This document shows, piece by piece, positions 46,183 through 49,831 of a stretch of DNA of 64,000 bases. The DNA is from Thiomicrorhabdus sediminis. Lineage in GTDB: Bacteria; Pseudomonadota; Gammaproteobacteria; Thiomicrospirales; Thiomicrospiraceae. The stretch lies in the NCBI RefSeq assembly GCF_005885815.1, contig NZ_CP040602.1, positions 635,630 through 699,629 on the forward strand. Direction: 5' to 3'. Within the stretch, counting starts at the first letter, position 1. Every line of letters starts with the position of its first letter. The position numbers were made by a program, and so were the translations under genes. Below the pieces are notes generated by a model. That model did not search any database. It had not been told where the DNA came from and worked only from the letters and a program-made list of their open reading frames with translations.

Positions 46183-47079
46183 ATGAAGCGTATCGGGTTA
46201 TTTTTATTAACTAACATCGCGGTTATCGCGGTGGCGATGATTACCATGAACATCTTGGGTGTGGGTAGTTATATGCAAGGCACAAGCCTGAACCTAAACA
46301 ACTTGTTTATGTTTGCGCTGATTTTCGGTTTTGCCGGTTCTTTCGTTTCTTTGGCGATGTCGAAGTGGATGGCGAAGATGTCTACCGGTGCTCAGGTGAT
46401 TACCGTTGCACGTAATGCCGATGAGCAGTGGTTATTGGAAACAGTTCAGCGTCAAGCGGCTAAAGCCGGTATCAAAACACCGGAAGTGGCGGTTTACAAC
46501 TCGCCTGAGCCAAACGCGTTCGCAACCGGTATGACAAAAAACAGCTCATTGGTAGCGGTTTCAACCGGTTTGATGCGCAGCATGACTCAGAATGAAGTCG
46601 AAGCGGTTCTTGGTCATGAAGTGGCTCACGTTGCCAACGGTGATATGGTCACCATGGCGTTGCTACAGGGTGTATTGAATACCTTTGTTATCTTCTTCGC
46701 GAAAATCGTCGCTTACGTGGTTGACCGCGTTATCCTTAAAAACGAGGAAGAAGGTCACAGCCTGGCGTTTATCGTGGTTGATATCGTGGCGCAGATTCTA
46801 TTCGGTATCTTGGCAAGTATTGTTGCGATGTGGTTCTCACGTAAGCGTGAATTCCATGCCGACAACGGTGGTGCTTACCTAGCCGGTAAAGAAAACATGA
46901 TTGCCGCATTGCGTCGTCTACAGACAATGCAGCCGGGTGAACTACCTGACCAAATGGCGGCATTCGGTATCTCGGCTAAGAAGTCGTCTTTCGGTGATCT
47001 ATTCAAGTCTCACCCAGACCTACAAGATCGTATCGACGCGCTACAAGCGACACCTAATGAGCAGTTGAAAGTCGCTTAA
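46183..47079 (+). CDS. htpX: Membrane zinc metalloprotease HtpX
   Basis: Inner-membrane M48-type protease that degrades misfolded membrane proteins with FtsH. Two N-terminal helices (about residues 5-25 and 38-58) precede the protease domain with the HExxH zinc motif in LGHEVAHVANGD (about 144-155) and a glutamate ligand in KREFHADNGGAYLAG. Two further helices lie between. AAGGAG precedes the ATG. The length of 298 aa is standard. The upstream sigma-32-like promoter fits its envelope-stress role. Confidence 0.95.
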   Translation: MKRIGLFLLTNIAVIAVAMITMNILGVGSYMQGTSLNLNNLFMFALIFGFAGSFVSLAMSKWMAKMSTGAQVITVARNADEQWLLETVQRQAAKAGIKTPEVAVYNSPEPNAFATGMTKNSSLVAVSTGLMRSMTQNEVEAVLGHEVAHVANGDMVTMALLQGVLNTFVIFFAKIVAYVVDRVILKNEEEGHSLAFIVVDIVAQILFGILASIVAMWFSRKREFHADNGGAYLAGKENMIAALRRLQTMQPGELPDQMAAFGISAKKSSFGDLFKSHPDLQDRIDALQATPNEQLKVA

Positions 47080-47107
47080 TTTAGCATTTAAAAATTTGCT
47101 TAAAAGA

Positions 47108-47144
47108 AAAGCCCTGTCAGTTTTTAACTGGCGGGGCTTTTTTA
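47108..47144 (+). terminator. Terminator of htpX
   Basis: AAAAGCCCTGTCAG and CTGGCGGGGCTTTT pair with G-U wobbles around a TTTTTAA loop and are followed by a T run, 29 bp after the htpX stop. Confidence 0.87.
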
Positions 47145-47223
47145 TTACTCAAATAAATATAATTGAATAAGGTATTATTTAATTAAGTATTTTTAACCGA
47201 TAATTTAATTGGAGTGATGCTTT

Positions 47224-47622
47224 ATGCCAAGACGACTGACACAAACAAAGACTCAGACCCATCAGGCCATGAAAAACTCATCTTATGAAAGTGAGGTTAT
47301 TAGTTGGTTAATGCAAGATGGCTGGCAGGTTTTTATTCCAATGTTAGATCATGGACACCGCACGGATATATTGATTTCAGATGGTCCTAACTATTATCGG
47401 ATTCAAGTAAAAACCATTGAAGCAAGTGGAGAAGATCAAGTTTTGTTGAATCGCTGGAAAGAAAGTCACGTTGATGTAGTGGTTTGTTTTGCAAGAAATT
47501 CCAATTGGGGCTATGTAATGCCAGCATTCGCGGAGAATAAACGCCAGCTCAATCATGACGGGCATGAGCGTTTTCAAGAGAACAAAAATGATTTTCTGAA
47601 AGCTTTTCATAAACTGGCCTGA
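47224..47622 (+). CDS. PD-(D/E)XK nuclease-like protein
   Basis: A 132-aa protein resembling the small PD-(D/E)XK endonuclease domain found in group I intron-associated nucleases. The candidate catalytic series is a Glu in YESEVISWLMQDGW (about residue 23), Asp in HRTDILISDG (about 48) and Gln-x-Lys in YRIQVKTIE (about 61-63). GGAG lies 9 bp upstream of the ATG. Base composition is more AT-rich than the flanking housekeeping genes. No intron is visible nearby. It sits alone between htpX and a composite repeat, which suggests recent acquisition. Biological role is unknown. Confidence 0.7.
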   Translation: MPRRLTQTKTQTHQAMKNSSYESEVISWLMQDGWQVFIPMLDHGHRTDILISDGPNYYRIQVKTIEASGEDQVLLNRWKESHVDVVVCFARNSNWGYVMPAFAENKRQLNHDGHERFQENKNDFLKAFHKLA

Positions 47623-47673
47623 GAAGCCTTTTTGAATGACGGTAAATCCTAAATTTTAGCTATCAGGCTTCCC

Positions 47674-48128
47674 GTTACTTTATTTGCTTGCCCAAATAAA
47701 GTAACCAAACAAAAGTCACCCTGCTGACACAATCTATTTCCCTAAACTTGTTCGCTGAAAATCCTGAACTCGGCGAACAAGTTCGCCTCAAGCAGCAGGA
47801 TTTTTTCACCGCGCCCTGCGTTAAGTGAAATGACGATTGCTTACAAAAGGGGATCCGTTGTTCACACGCTGTTTTGGTTTAACCTCTTTCTTTTTATCGT
47901 AGGTTTTGAGCTGGGGGGTGATTTTTTCCGTTTAAGAAATATTACTTTGACACCCTTAGTCCCTTTGGAATAAATAGTGCAGAGTTCTTAACGAAGTGAA
48001 CGATTAAAAAATCCTGCTGTCCGAGCGTAGCGAGTTCAGGATTTTCAGTGAATGAGTTTTAGAACCTGCCTATTTATGGAGCAGGGTGTCTTTTTTTGCT
48101 TACTTTGTTGGACAAGCAACAAAGTAAG
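47674..48128. repeat. 455-bp composite inverted-repeat element
   Basis: The ends are mirror images with conserved order. Left end: a 13-bp stem hairpin (GTTACTTTATTTG, loop, complement; 47674-47705), CACCCTGCT at 47717-47725, CTGAAAATCCTGAACTCG at 47755-47772 and AGCAGGATTTTTT at 47794-47806. The right end has, inverted, AAAAAATCCTGCT (48006-48018), CGAGTTCAGGATTTTCAG (48031-48048), AGCAGGGTG (48080-48088) and a 12-bp stem hairpin (48099-48128). The left end also has ACTTGTTCGC/GCGAACAAGT arms. No open frame lies within. It resembles dispersed palindromic repeats with a TTACTTT...AAAGTAA hairpin that I recall from other proteobacteria. Mobility is not shown. Confidence 0.8.
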
Positions 48129-48213
48129 GTGAAGCCCATTAGAAAAGCTAAAAGGCTGTTAATAAGTTTTAAGGGGCTTCGCAATTACGTAGCTGTTTTT
48201 ATGACTCAAAATT

Positions 48214-48246
48214 AAAAAGCCCTCGCAACTAGAGTAGTTGAAGGGC
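48214..48246 (-). terminator. Terminator of lemA
   Basis: GCCCT...CAACTA pairs with TAGTTG...AGGGC around GAG, with one small internal loop. On the minus strand the stem is followed by TTTTT. It lies 30 bp after the lemA stop. Confidence 0.82.
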
Positions 48247-48276
48247 CATCTAATCAATGTTTAGTAAACGGATTTA

Positions 48277-48876
48277 CTACTTAAAATTAGGTTTATATTC
48301 AAAAGCAGATGCCGCAGTTGAGTCTTCAAAAATATTCAGCGCTTGTTCTTTATTCAAGAACCCATTCACCAGGTTCATCGGAAACATGCCAATAAACGCA
48401 TTGAATTCTTCGACATTCGAGTTAAAGATACGAATCGCGGCTCCGACATTCTCTTCCTGCTTGGTGACTTCATGCATCGCCTTTTTAAAGGTATCGTTGG
48501 CTTTTAGATCGGGGTAGGCTTCGGCGACAAAATTTAGACCGCCAAGAAAGGCTTTTACATTGTCATCGAACTGTTTGGCGCTATTGACATCAATGCTGTC
48601 GCCTCTTAGCTGTTGTGAATCGTTTTGCAGTTTGGAGGCTTGTCCTCGAAGTTCGGTCACAGCGGTTAGCACTTCTCCTTCATAGCCGGTGTATTGGTCA
48701 ACCAACTTCAGCAGTTCAGGCAGAATCTTACCTTTCTGGCGTTCTTGGGTAATGACATTCGCCCAGCCGCGTTTTACCGATTCTTTCAATGAAACAATCT
48801 GGTTATAGATGGTGATAACCGAAATAATCAGCAGAACGATGATAAAGACGGTAATCATTGTTGGGCTAATATCCAT
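48277..48876 (-). CDS. lemA: LemA family membrane protein
   Basis: A 199-aa protein with one N-terminal membrane helix (about residues 5-25) and a helical-bundle body typical of LemA. The segment YNQIVSLKESVKRGWANV (about 30-47) is the family signature, and ADAYPDLKANDTF-like text (EAYPDLKANDTFKKAM) is also typical. The start was set at 48876, where AAGGAG lies six bases upstream. The function of LemA is not established. It is 10 bp downstream of the DUF3137 gene. Confidence 0.9.
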   Translation of the reverse strand: MDISPTMITVFIIVLLIISVITIYNQIVSLKESVKRGWANVITQERQKGKILPELLKLVDQYTGYEGEVLTAVTELRGQASKLQNDSQQLRGDSIDVNSAKQFDDNVKAFLGGLNFVAEAYPDLKANDTFKKAMHEVTKQEENVGAAIRIFNSNVEEFNAFIGMFPMNLVNGFLNKEQALNIFEDSTAASAFEYKPNFK

Positions 48877-48886
48877 GATGGACTCC

Positions 48887-49831
48887 TTATGGTTGATGCT
48901 CACGGCGCAGAGTGTTAGCCAGCGCCAGTATTTGGTTAAGATTGTCGAACTGTTCGTGTATCAAAATGTCTTTGGCAAACTCATCGGGCGTGGTGTAGTC
49001 ATAGGGCGTGCTATTGTGTTGCATCAATTCCAGTTCACCATAAATACAGAGCTGGTTACCGGAAATCTGTACCAGCATATCGCTTAATATATCCTCATAT
49101 TCAGCGAGTTTTTCCACCACCACCGGGGTTAATAATCGAGCCAATTGCATCTGGTTTTTGCCATAGGCTTTGAGTTTGCGGTTGAATTTATTATAAGCGG
49201 GTTTGAAGCGTTCTTGAAAGCGGGCGTCTTCAGGTTTGCTGTGGCAGATAACCACGCCATTATAATCGTAACTGGTTTCATCCAGACTCATGACAATGCC
49301 ATAGCGGTGAAAATGTTCATCATGATAGTGTTTGTCATCATGGTCCTTTTCTCGTTCGACATAGTGGTAATGAAAAACAATAAAACCGTTATCCGATTGG
49401 TAGGCCTGCTTGATCTCATTTTTATGATTGCCCTGTTTAAACCCGCAGAATAGGCGTTTGAAATCGCCAATCGGCAGATTGATCAGGCTGAGTTGATTGT
49501 CAATCAGAATGCTTTTAAAAAAGGCGTCTTTGGCTAAGTTTTTTAAACGTCGATTGCGTTTGATGGCATAAAAAATCGCCAGTAGGGCAGCAGCGGCAGG
49601 GATGGCGGTTTTAATCCAGTTTGCACTTTGCAACCAGACAAGAACACTCGCTGTAGCAAAAATCGCGGCGACAATATAGAGCCAGAGATTATTGAATTTA
49701 AGTGGGCCGGGGTAGTCTTTGACCATTTGGATCGTATCCAACAGGTCTTGATTATGCCTTGCCAGAGAGATATCAGTTTTCAGCTGTTTGAGAAGATCGG
49801 CGAATTGTCGATTTTGACTGAATTGACCCAT
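48887..49831 (-). CDS. DUF3137-type membrane protein
   Basis: A 314-aa protein with two closely spaced membrane helices (about residues 49-67 and 73-90) and a large cytoplasmic C-terminal domain. It resembles DUF3137 proteins that are commonly encoded next to lemA, as here. A histidine- and aspartate-rich stretch around residues 155-177 (HYHYVEREKDHDDKHYHDEH) is conspicuous and could bind metal; this is inference. It is first of the two-gene unit with lemA. No enzymatic motif is recognised. Confidence 0.72.
   Translation of the reverse strand: MGQFSQNRQFADLLKQLKTDISLARHNQDLLDTIQMVKDYPGPLKFNNLWLYIVAAIFATASVLVWLQSANWIKTAIPAAAALLAIFYAIKRNRRLKNLAKDAFFKSILIDNQLSLINLPIGDFKRLFCGFKQGNHKNEIKQAYQSDNGFIVFHYHYVEREKDHDDKHYHDEHFHRYGIVMSLDETSYDYNGVVICHSKPEDARFQERFKPAYNKFNRKLKAYGKNQMQLARLLTPVVVEKLAEYEDILSDMLVQISGNQLCIYGELELMQHNSTPYDYTTPDEFAKDILIHEQFDNLNQILALANTLRREHQP

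Follow-up and report, generated by a model that had tools for sequence, protein, structure and literature searches.

A dispersed palindromic non-coding repeat with predicted pseudoknotted tips in Thiomicrorhabdus sediminis and its congeners

Integron attC sites are folded sites that lie just behind the stop codons of small acquired genes, and the units of REP sequences and REPINs measure 20–40 bases. The copy number of REP sequences is usually above 100, as stated in the accessible part of PMC2817692. The TwoAYGGAY motif (Rfam RF01731) is tabulated as a probable RNA that is not cis-regulatory, according to the accessible part of PMC2864571. The repeat described here lies in a 64,000-nucleotide stretch of Thiomicrorhabdus sediminis (NZ_CP040602.1, positions 635,630 to 699,629), hereafter the window. 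Like a MITE, it is short, non-coding and multicopy and has terminal inverted repeats, and in the congener G015 its half-unit is carried in a MITE; unlike a MITE, its copies in its own genome lack target duplications, which are found only with the G015 half-unit MITE. With REP sequences and REPINs it shares an extragenic position, a palindromic structure, an arrangement in opposed pairs and proximity to gene 3′ ends (the REP side of this comparison being in part general knowledge), but its unit of about 235 bases, its nine copies and the lack of a Y1_Tnp (RAYT) match in the genome set it apart. It resembles attC in being a folded site right after the stop codon of small acquired genes, but is much larger and mirrored, in many cases has no cassette gene, and belongs to a genome in which no IntI scores above the cut-off. 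Matches to the TwoAYGGAY model occur beside the same kind of hairpin in Pseudoalteromonas sp. NC201, but the window unit has none, and the account of this RNA in the accessible part of PMC2864571 gives no pseudoknotted tips. The sequence-only reading had called the element MITE- or REP-like; the likeness to REP fails on size, copy number and helper, and MITE-like 7-bp duplications occur with the G015 half-unit and not with the copies of this genome. None of the fetched copies was recognised as an autonomous parent element.

That reading had described four sequence blocks that occur in the same order, inverted, at both ends of 47674–48128, and all four are present there in the window sequence. 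The hairpin stems pair in 13/13 positions on the left (47674–47686 with 47693–47705) and in 12/12 on the right (48099–48110 with 48117–48128), CACCCTGCT at 47717–47725 is mirrored by AGCAGGGTG at 48080–48088, the 18-base block is perfect, and AGCAGGATTTTTT at 47794–47806 has its mirror at 48006–48018. The unit does not end at these blocks, however. When nine copies are aligned, their outer ends prove conserved (left mostly TTGMGAAGCC, right mostly GGCTTCKCAA), and we place the limits of the unit at 47620 and 48184, which gives a palindromic, non-coding repeat of 565 bases between two genes, with the following features.

47224–47622, plus strand: low-GC PDDEXK_5 gene, GC 0.401, the lowest of the 62 window ORFs; its stop codon lies in the repeat end
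47620–48184, plus strand: entire repeat, with two arms in opposed orientation around a variable middle (nine-copy alignment and profile)
47620–47628, plus strand: left outer end TGAGAAGCC, with the TGA that terminates the PDDEXK_5 gene
47674–47705, plus strand: left hairpin, 13-bp stem, loop CTTGCC (47687–47692), with genus-wide stem covariation
47706–47718, plus strand: linker CAAACAAAA and predicted pseudoknot partner of the left arm, here GTCA
47755–47772, plus strand: left 18-base perfect block, mirrored at 48031–48048
47794–47806, plus strand: AGCAGGATTTTTT, left, mirrored at 48006–48018
47826–47986, plus strand: variable stretch that separates the long arms and includes the start of the conserved right-arm core
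47960–47993, plus strand: most conserved core, right arm, TCCCTTTGGAATAAATAGTGCAGAGTTCTTAACG (nine-copy alignment)
48006–48018, plus strand: AAAAAATCCTGCT, mirror of 47794–47806
48031–48048, plus strand: right 18-base perfect block, mirror of 47755–47772
48087–48128, minus strand: tip of the right arm, hairpin 48099–48128 with loop GACA (48111–48114) facing TGTC (48087–48090)
48175–48184, plus strand: right outer end GGCTTCGCAA (sequence and nine-copy alignment)

The list of open reading frames contains none of 60 aa or more between 47623 and 48256, in agreement with the earlier statement that the stretch between the mirrored ends has no coding frame. In the nine-copy profile, the left half matches the opposite strand of the right half, and the unit is composed of two opposed structured units of about 235 bases around a middle that varies, while the right-hand core TCCCTTTGGAATAAATAGTGCAGAGTTCTTAACG is almost invariant. 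The two arms match each other with an E-value of 3.8e-9 in a self-search of the window, and the strand 47620–48187, folded as DNA, reaches −111 kcal/mol versus −61 ± 5 kcal/mol for shuffled sequences (z −9.5; 0/100 shuffles as low); the mirrored structure is therefore far beyond chance. The suggestion that the element might be two opposed copies is supported by the single half-units that occur in congeners, above all in G015.

Read onward from the TTACTTT hairpin along the hairpin's own strand, either arm has an A-rich linker and, after it, bases that face the hairpin loop. Since the loop would pair with these bases past the linker, each tip is predicted to form an H-type pseudoknot. Loop–partner pairings over copies and taxa include TGCC/GGCA, TGTC/GACA, GTTCG/CGAAC and TGAG/CTCA; the left partner GTCA of the window copy makes a poorer pairing, and most sister copies have GGCA. 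At hairpin loci from named genomes, the loop–partner helix has a mean of 4.11 pairs versus 2.74 ± 0.10 after re-dealing (0/1000 as high; 84 hairpins in 73 distinct combinations, those with fewer than 18 downstream bases dropped). The corresponding values are 4.11 versus 3.15 ± 0.10 within the genus (0/2000; 71 distinct rows with at most three seed mismatches and C after the stem) and 4.21 versus 2.77 ± 0.10 when each loop is counted once across all taxa (0/2000; 75 loops), all under re-dealing controls that ignore phylogeny. In the stem, pairs 1, 4, 7, 9, 11 and 12, among others, vary on both sides in the genus rows. Covariation of the loop was thus followed in the genus and across phyla, and that of the stem in the genus only, because the pattern used for the named hairpins fixes nearly the whole stem. 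The aligned copies show the predicted tip structure to be kept through paired changes. As to the folded strand, and with it RNA or DNA, a count by eye in the genus alignment gives stem departures of the T·G and C·A kinds in roughly equal numbers; a few internal T·G pairs in loops of Selenomonas and Chitinophaga lean to the hairpin-first strand and are too few to decide.

A search of the genome (one contig of 2,373,486 bases) with 47660–48150 as the query returned nine full-length copies, 69–100% identical to the window copy, as well as partial ones. The element is thus not a single copy, and its proposed membership of a dispersed family is borne out. Among 24 other congeners, at least 12 have a match at E ≤ 1e-3, a patchy distribution in which copy numbers are lower bounds. 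Full units with the same ends are present among the fetched copies of G008, G014, G021, G007, G006 and G009, together with single half-units; in G015, 16 of the 17 profiled copies are right halves embedded in a MITE of about 420 bases. G021 carries arrays of copies in the same orientation with genes between them. Tandem copies or remnants in the same orientation are frequent and mostly about 45–110 bp apart (L156, L158, L159, L102, L110, L141, L149).

The nine copies of this genome fall into a single clade with a support of 100/100 in a tree built from 24 full-length copies, although the sites htpX, metH, eamA and yraN are occupied in other species too. In the resolved parts of the tree, orthologous sites do not bring copies together, the 15 rows from other species lying largely in an unresolved fork. 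Plain vertical inheritance fits this topology less well than does recombination among copies or a recent spread into favoured sites. Several congeners nevertheless have the repeat at the same sites and mostly in the same orientation (htpX, gltD, where G007 differs, metH, purK and eamA), and such shared sites could be old vertical insertions. The repeat would then be an old, vertically inherited, structured intergenic element that serves in 3′-end processing, termination or mRNA protection, is kept alike within a genome by gene conversion and is no longer mobile, a reading with which the bias toward gene 3′ ends described below, the structure kept by covariation and a T-run at 48091–48097, directly after the stem base, would also agree. 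The patchy distribution, the ungrouped copies at orthologous sites and a dnaE site that is empty in seven congeners speak against it, and we consider it unlikely. A terminator scan of 46900–48400 likewise gave no terminator and leaves a classical terminator reading unsupported; this negative is weak, because the same scan overlooked the obvious htpX terminator.

Comparison of individual loci shows how the repeat differs in its presence between congeners. Downstream of htpX, we compared our genome with 24 congener stretches of up to 1.5 kb (that of G009 has only 69 bases). A repeat match was found in seven congeners, G014, G042, G021, G008, G007, G006 and G040 (the last over 33 bases only), so that this locus, which the sequence-only reading had proposed for comparison, does not carry the repeat in all relatives; in G004 and G041, htpX is directly followed by another gene, which we take to be TrpB-like, without the repeat. 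Judged by eye, the terminator of htpX is common to the repeat-bearing species, whose sequences part immediately behind its T-run. The genes that precede the repeat here are unrelated: PDDEXK_5 in our genome, type I restriction N-terminal in G014, Schlafen AlbA_2 in G007, and genes of 169 aa (without a Pfam match) in G008 and 283 aa in G006; in G021, the intervening gene runs in the opposite direction. On the other flank of the window copy, the lemA-like gene (48277–48903) has a match at E ≤ 1e-30 in only one of 31 other congeners (G012, 46% identical), and this flank may therefore be accessory too. At dnaE, where nine extended congener stretches were judged from ORF lists and the repeat profile, a low-GC gene of 218 aa and the repeat lie downstream in our genome. 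Seven congeners (G008, G014, G042, G021, G009, G040 and G006) keep the order of dnaE and a gene that is presumably nitroreductase-like but have neither of these two in between; G015 has its half-unit there, and G002 has another gene order without the repeat.

The ORF nearest to a copy turns its 3′ end toward it in a ratio of 12:4 in our genome and 91:31 in congeners, where ORFs are mechanical calls of which some are probably shadows, such as a 129-aa ORF beside the yraN copy that is antisense to a likely gene. Outward of the hairpins at the named loci, 3′ ends face the hairpin more often than 5′ ends (43:17 within 400 bp); the inner side has no such excess (3′ 28, 5′ 38). These data establish a non-coding repeat with nine copies and precise ends that favours the 3′ ends of genes, keeps its structure through paired changes and, between congeners, differs in presence at given sites.

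The earlier reading had placed the element in an accessory stretch, and the low GC of the adjoining PDDEXK_5 gene supports this. In our genome, the nearest genes have a mean GC content of 0.408 and the second, third and fourth 0.468, 0.473 and 0.477 (with a tandem pair counted twice, 0.406 versus 0.461–0.479 further out). In 11 congeners, the nearest minus the second-nearest gene amounts to about −0.04 to +0.01, and the named loci show no GC drop in the nearest gene (mean difference −0.002; 37/74 negative). Low-GC neighbours are thus marked in our genome only, which argues against a general cassette rule. The stop codons of the seven low-GC neighbour genes lie −2, 6, 10, 11, 18, 36 and 44 bp from the repeat, the genes adjoin either of its ends, and six of the seven lack a Pfam match at E ≤ 0.01; they look acquired. 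PADLOC gave one clear match among ten neighbour genes, an AlbA/Schlafen-like PDC-S50, and we therefore claim no defence role for them.

The short distances between these stop codons and the repeat, the differing genes at htpX, the joint lack of gene and repeat at dnaE and the arrays of G021 with genes between copies would all suit a gene-cassette tail, that is, a repeat fused to the 3′ ends of small acquired genes, attC-like but with a different recombinase. The PDDEXK_5 gene of the window has homologues in 7 of 62 genomes of the family, its own included, and five of the six congener homologues have no repeat within the approximately 1.5 kb viewed, so this gene moves without the repeat; the sixth, in G042, is about 200 bp from a copy at a different site, next to a gene that we take to be lspA-like. 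Since, in addition, the GC effect is not general, low-GC genes occur at either repeat end, the intervening gene at htpX in G021 runs the other way and our genome has no integron integrase above the cut-off, we give the cassette tail little credence. By eye, attC-like repeats flank the G042 PDDEXK gene on both sides (L331, 2491–2889); it is possibly a stranded cassette, though G042 has no integron integrase above the cut-off.

None of the nine copies in our genome shows target-site duplications (in 4002 of 5000 shuffles, the sum is at least as high); for the window copy, whose right end the script had mis-set, inspection by eye gives no duplication either. The Y1/RAYT family has no match in this genome, and 21 of the 32 genus genomes have one; an integron integrase above the cut-off is likewise absent here and present in 12 of the 32. 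Both were accordingly rejected as helpers, and the earlier proposal of spread by a transposase in trans is not supported in this genome. In G015, the half-units do have 7-bp duplications, exact in 4/15 and with 6/7 matching in 3/15, which 1 of 10000 shuffles equalled, with the 7-base length picked post hoc, 1 of the 16 half-copies dropped since its left end was not found, and the full-length G015 copy excluded. The MITE of about 420 bases that carries the right half of the repeat in G015 (e.g., L129, L130, L133, L134) has the ends TGTAAAA...TTTTACA. These G015 half-units speak for reading the repeat as a MITE of a DDE transposase whose target duplications have decayed with age; the ends of the G015 MITE, however, lie outside the unit and, by eye, are absent around the copies of our genome, which have no duplications themselves, and we find this origin quite improbable.

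As a whole, the data are in our view probably, though by no means certainly, best explained by a non-coding, non-autonomous dispersed repeat that is mobilised in trans and whose copies recombine. Each repeat would consist of two opposed units of about 235 bases, each with a pseudoknotted hairpin tip; a protein recognising the strand in its folded, single-stranded state would mobilise copies in trans, and copies so seeded would exchange sequence through homologous recombination. Such recombination would keep the copies within a genome alike and allow adjoining genes to be swapped, whereby repeat-bearing sites would become exchange points for acquired genes. The missing target duplications and Y1 match in our genome and the restriction of the low-GC bias to it are points against this explanation, as are the five PDDEXK_5 homologues without a repeat, the lack of a 3′-end excess inward of the named hairpins and the shared sites, which could be old vertical insertions.

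Scans of other genomes tested whether hairpins of this type are common in beta- and gammaproteobacteria. The hairpin pattern occurs in at least 120 stretches of named genomes, and the 80 loci analysed include beta- and gammaproteobacteria, Bacteroidota, relatives of Selenomonas, Ignavibacteriae and Desulfuromonadales. The 48-base tip block has a 92–98% match in Ilyobacter polytropus (Fusobacteriota) and partial matches in megaplasmids of Caballeronia and Pseudoalteromonas. The motif is patchily distributed: the exact pattern is present in 4 of 369 genomes of the class, our own included, and its reversed control in none. An inward-facing partner hairpin lies 376–698 bases away at 12 of the 80 named loci, judged by hairpin positions; when an aligned partner is required, it faces inward for 9 and outward for 2 of 82 hairpins. 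Presence in E. coli is not supported, the 48-base hairpin query having no match in a collection of 5,426 genomes. A phage origin is not supported either, as the element has no phage match and the hairpin gives only partial, mostly weak ones. Literature searches, with poor coverage of subscription journals, found no paper on this repeat among those listed.

In Pseudoalteromonas sp. NC201 (L164), TwoAYGGAY matches right beside the hairpin with 56.7 bits (cut-off 43), the only one of 18 sources scanned in which the model was matched. Within the window unit, it has no match even at E ≤ 5, and Rfam membership of the window copy was rejected. Three TwoAYGGAY matches, one of them under the cut-off, lie in and around one Pseudoalteromonas element (L164, 1583–2527) and adjoin its pseudoknot hairpins.

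A wider reading, possible but doubtful, is that these are mobile repeats that cross phyla, with a conserved pseudoknot that a mobilising protein would read in folded single-stranded form and with copies that would act as landing pads at which bacteria exchange acquired genes. As part of this reading, and put forward just as tentatively, the recognition element would be the hairpin GTTACTTTNTTTG-loop-CAAANAAAGTAAC with its A-rich linker and loop partner. If true, one folded motif would unite scattered intergenic repeats of Pseudomonadota, Bacteroidota, Negativicutes and Fusobacteriota, and the TwoAYGGAY RNA, listed without a function in the accessible part of its description, would gain a physical setting. 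It would also point to a missing mobilising protein and offer a testable account of the turnover of small orphan genes at fixed chromosomal sites. In three loci from relatives of Selenomonas (L167, L192 and L217), the hairpin begins 5–21 bp after the stop codons of ORFs of 378–976 aa.
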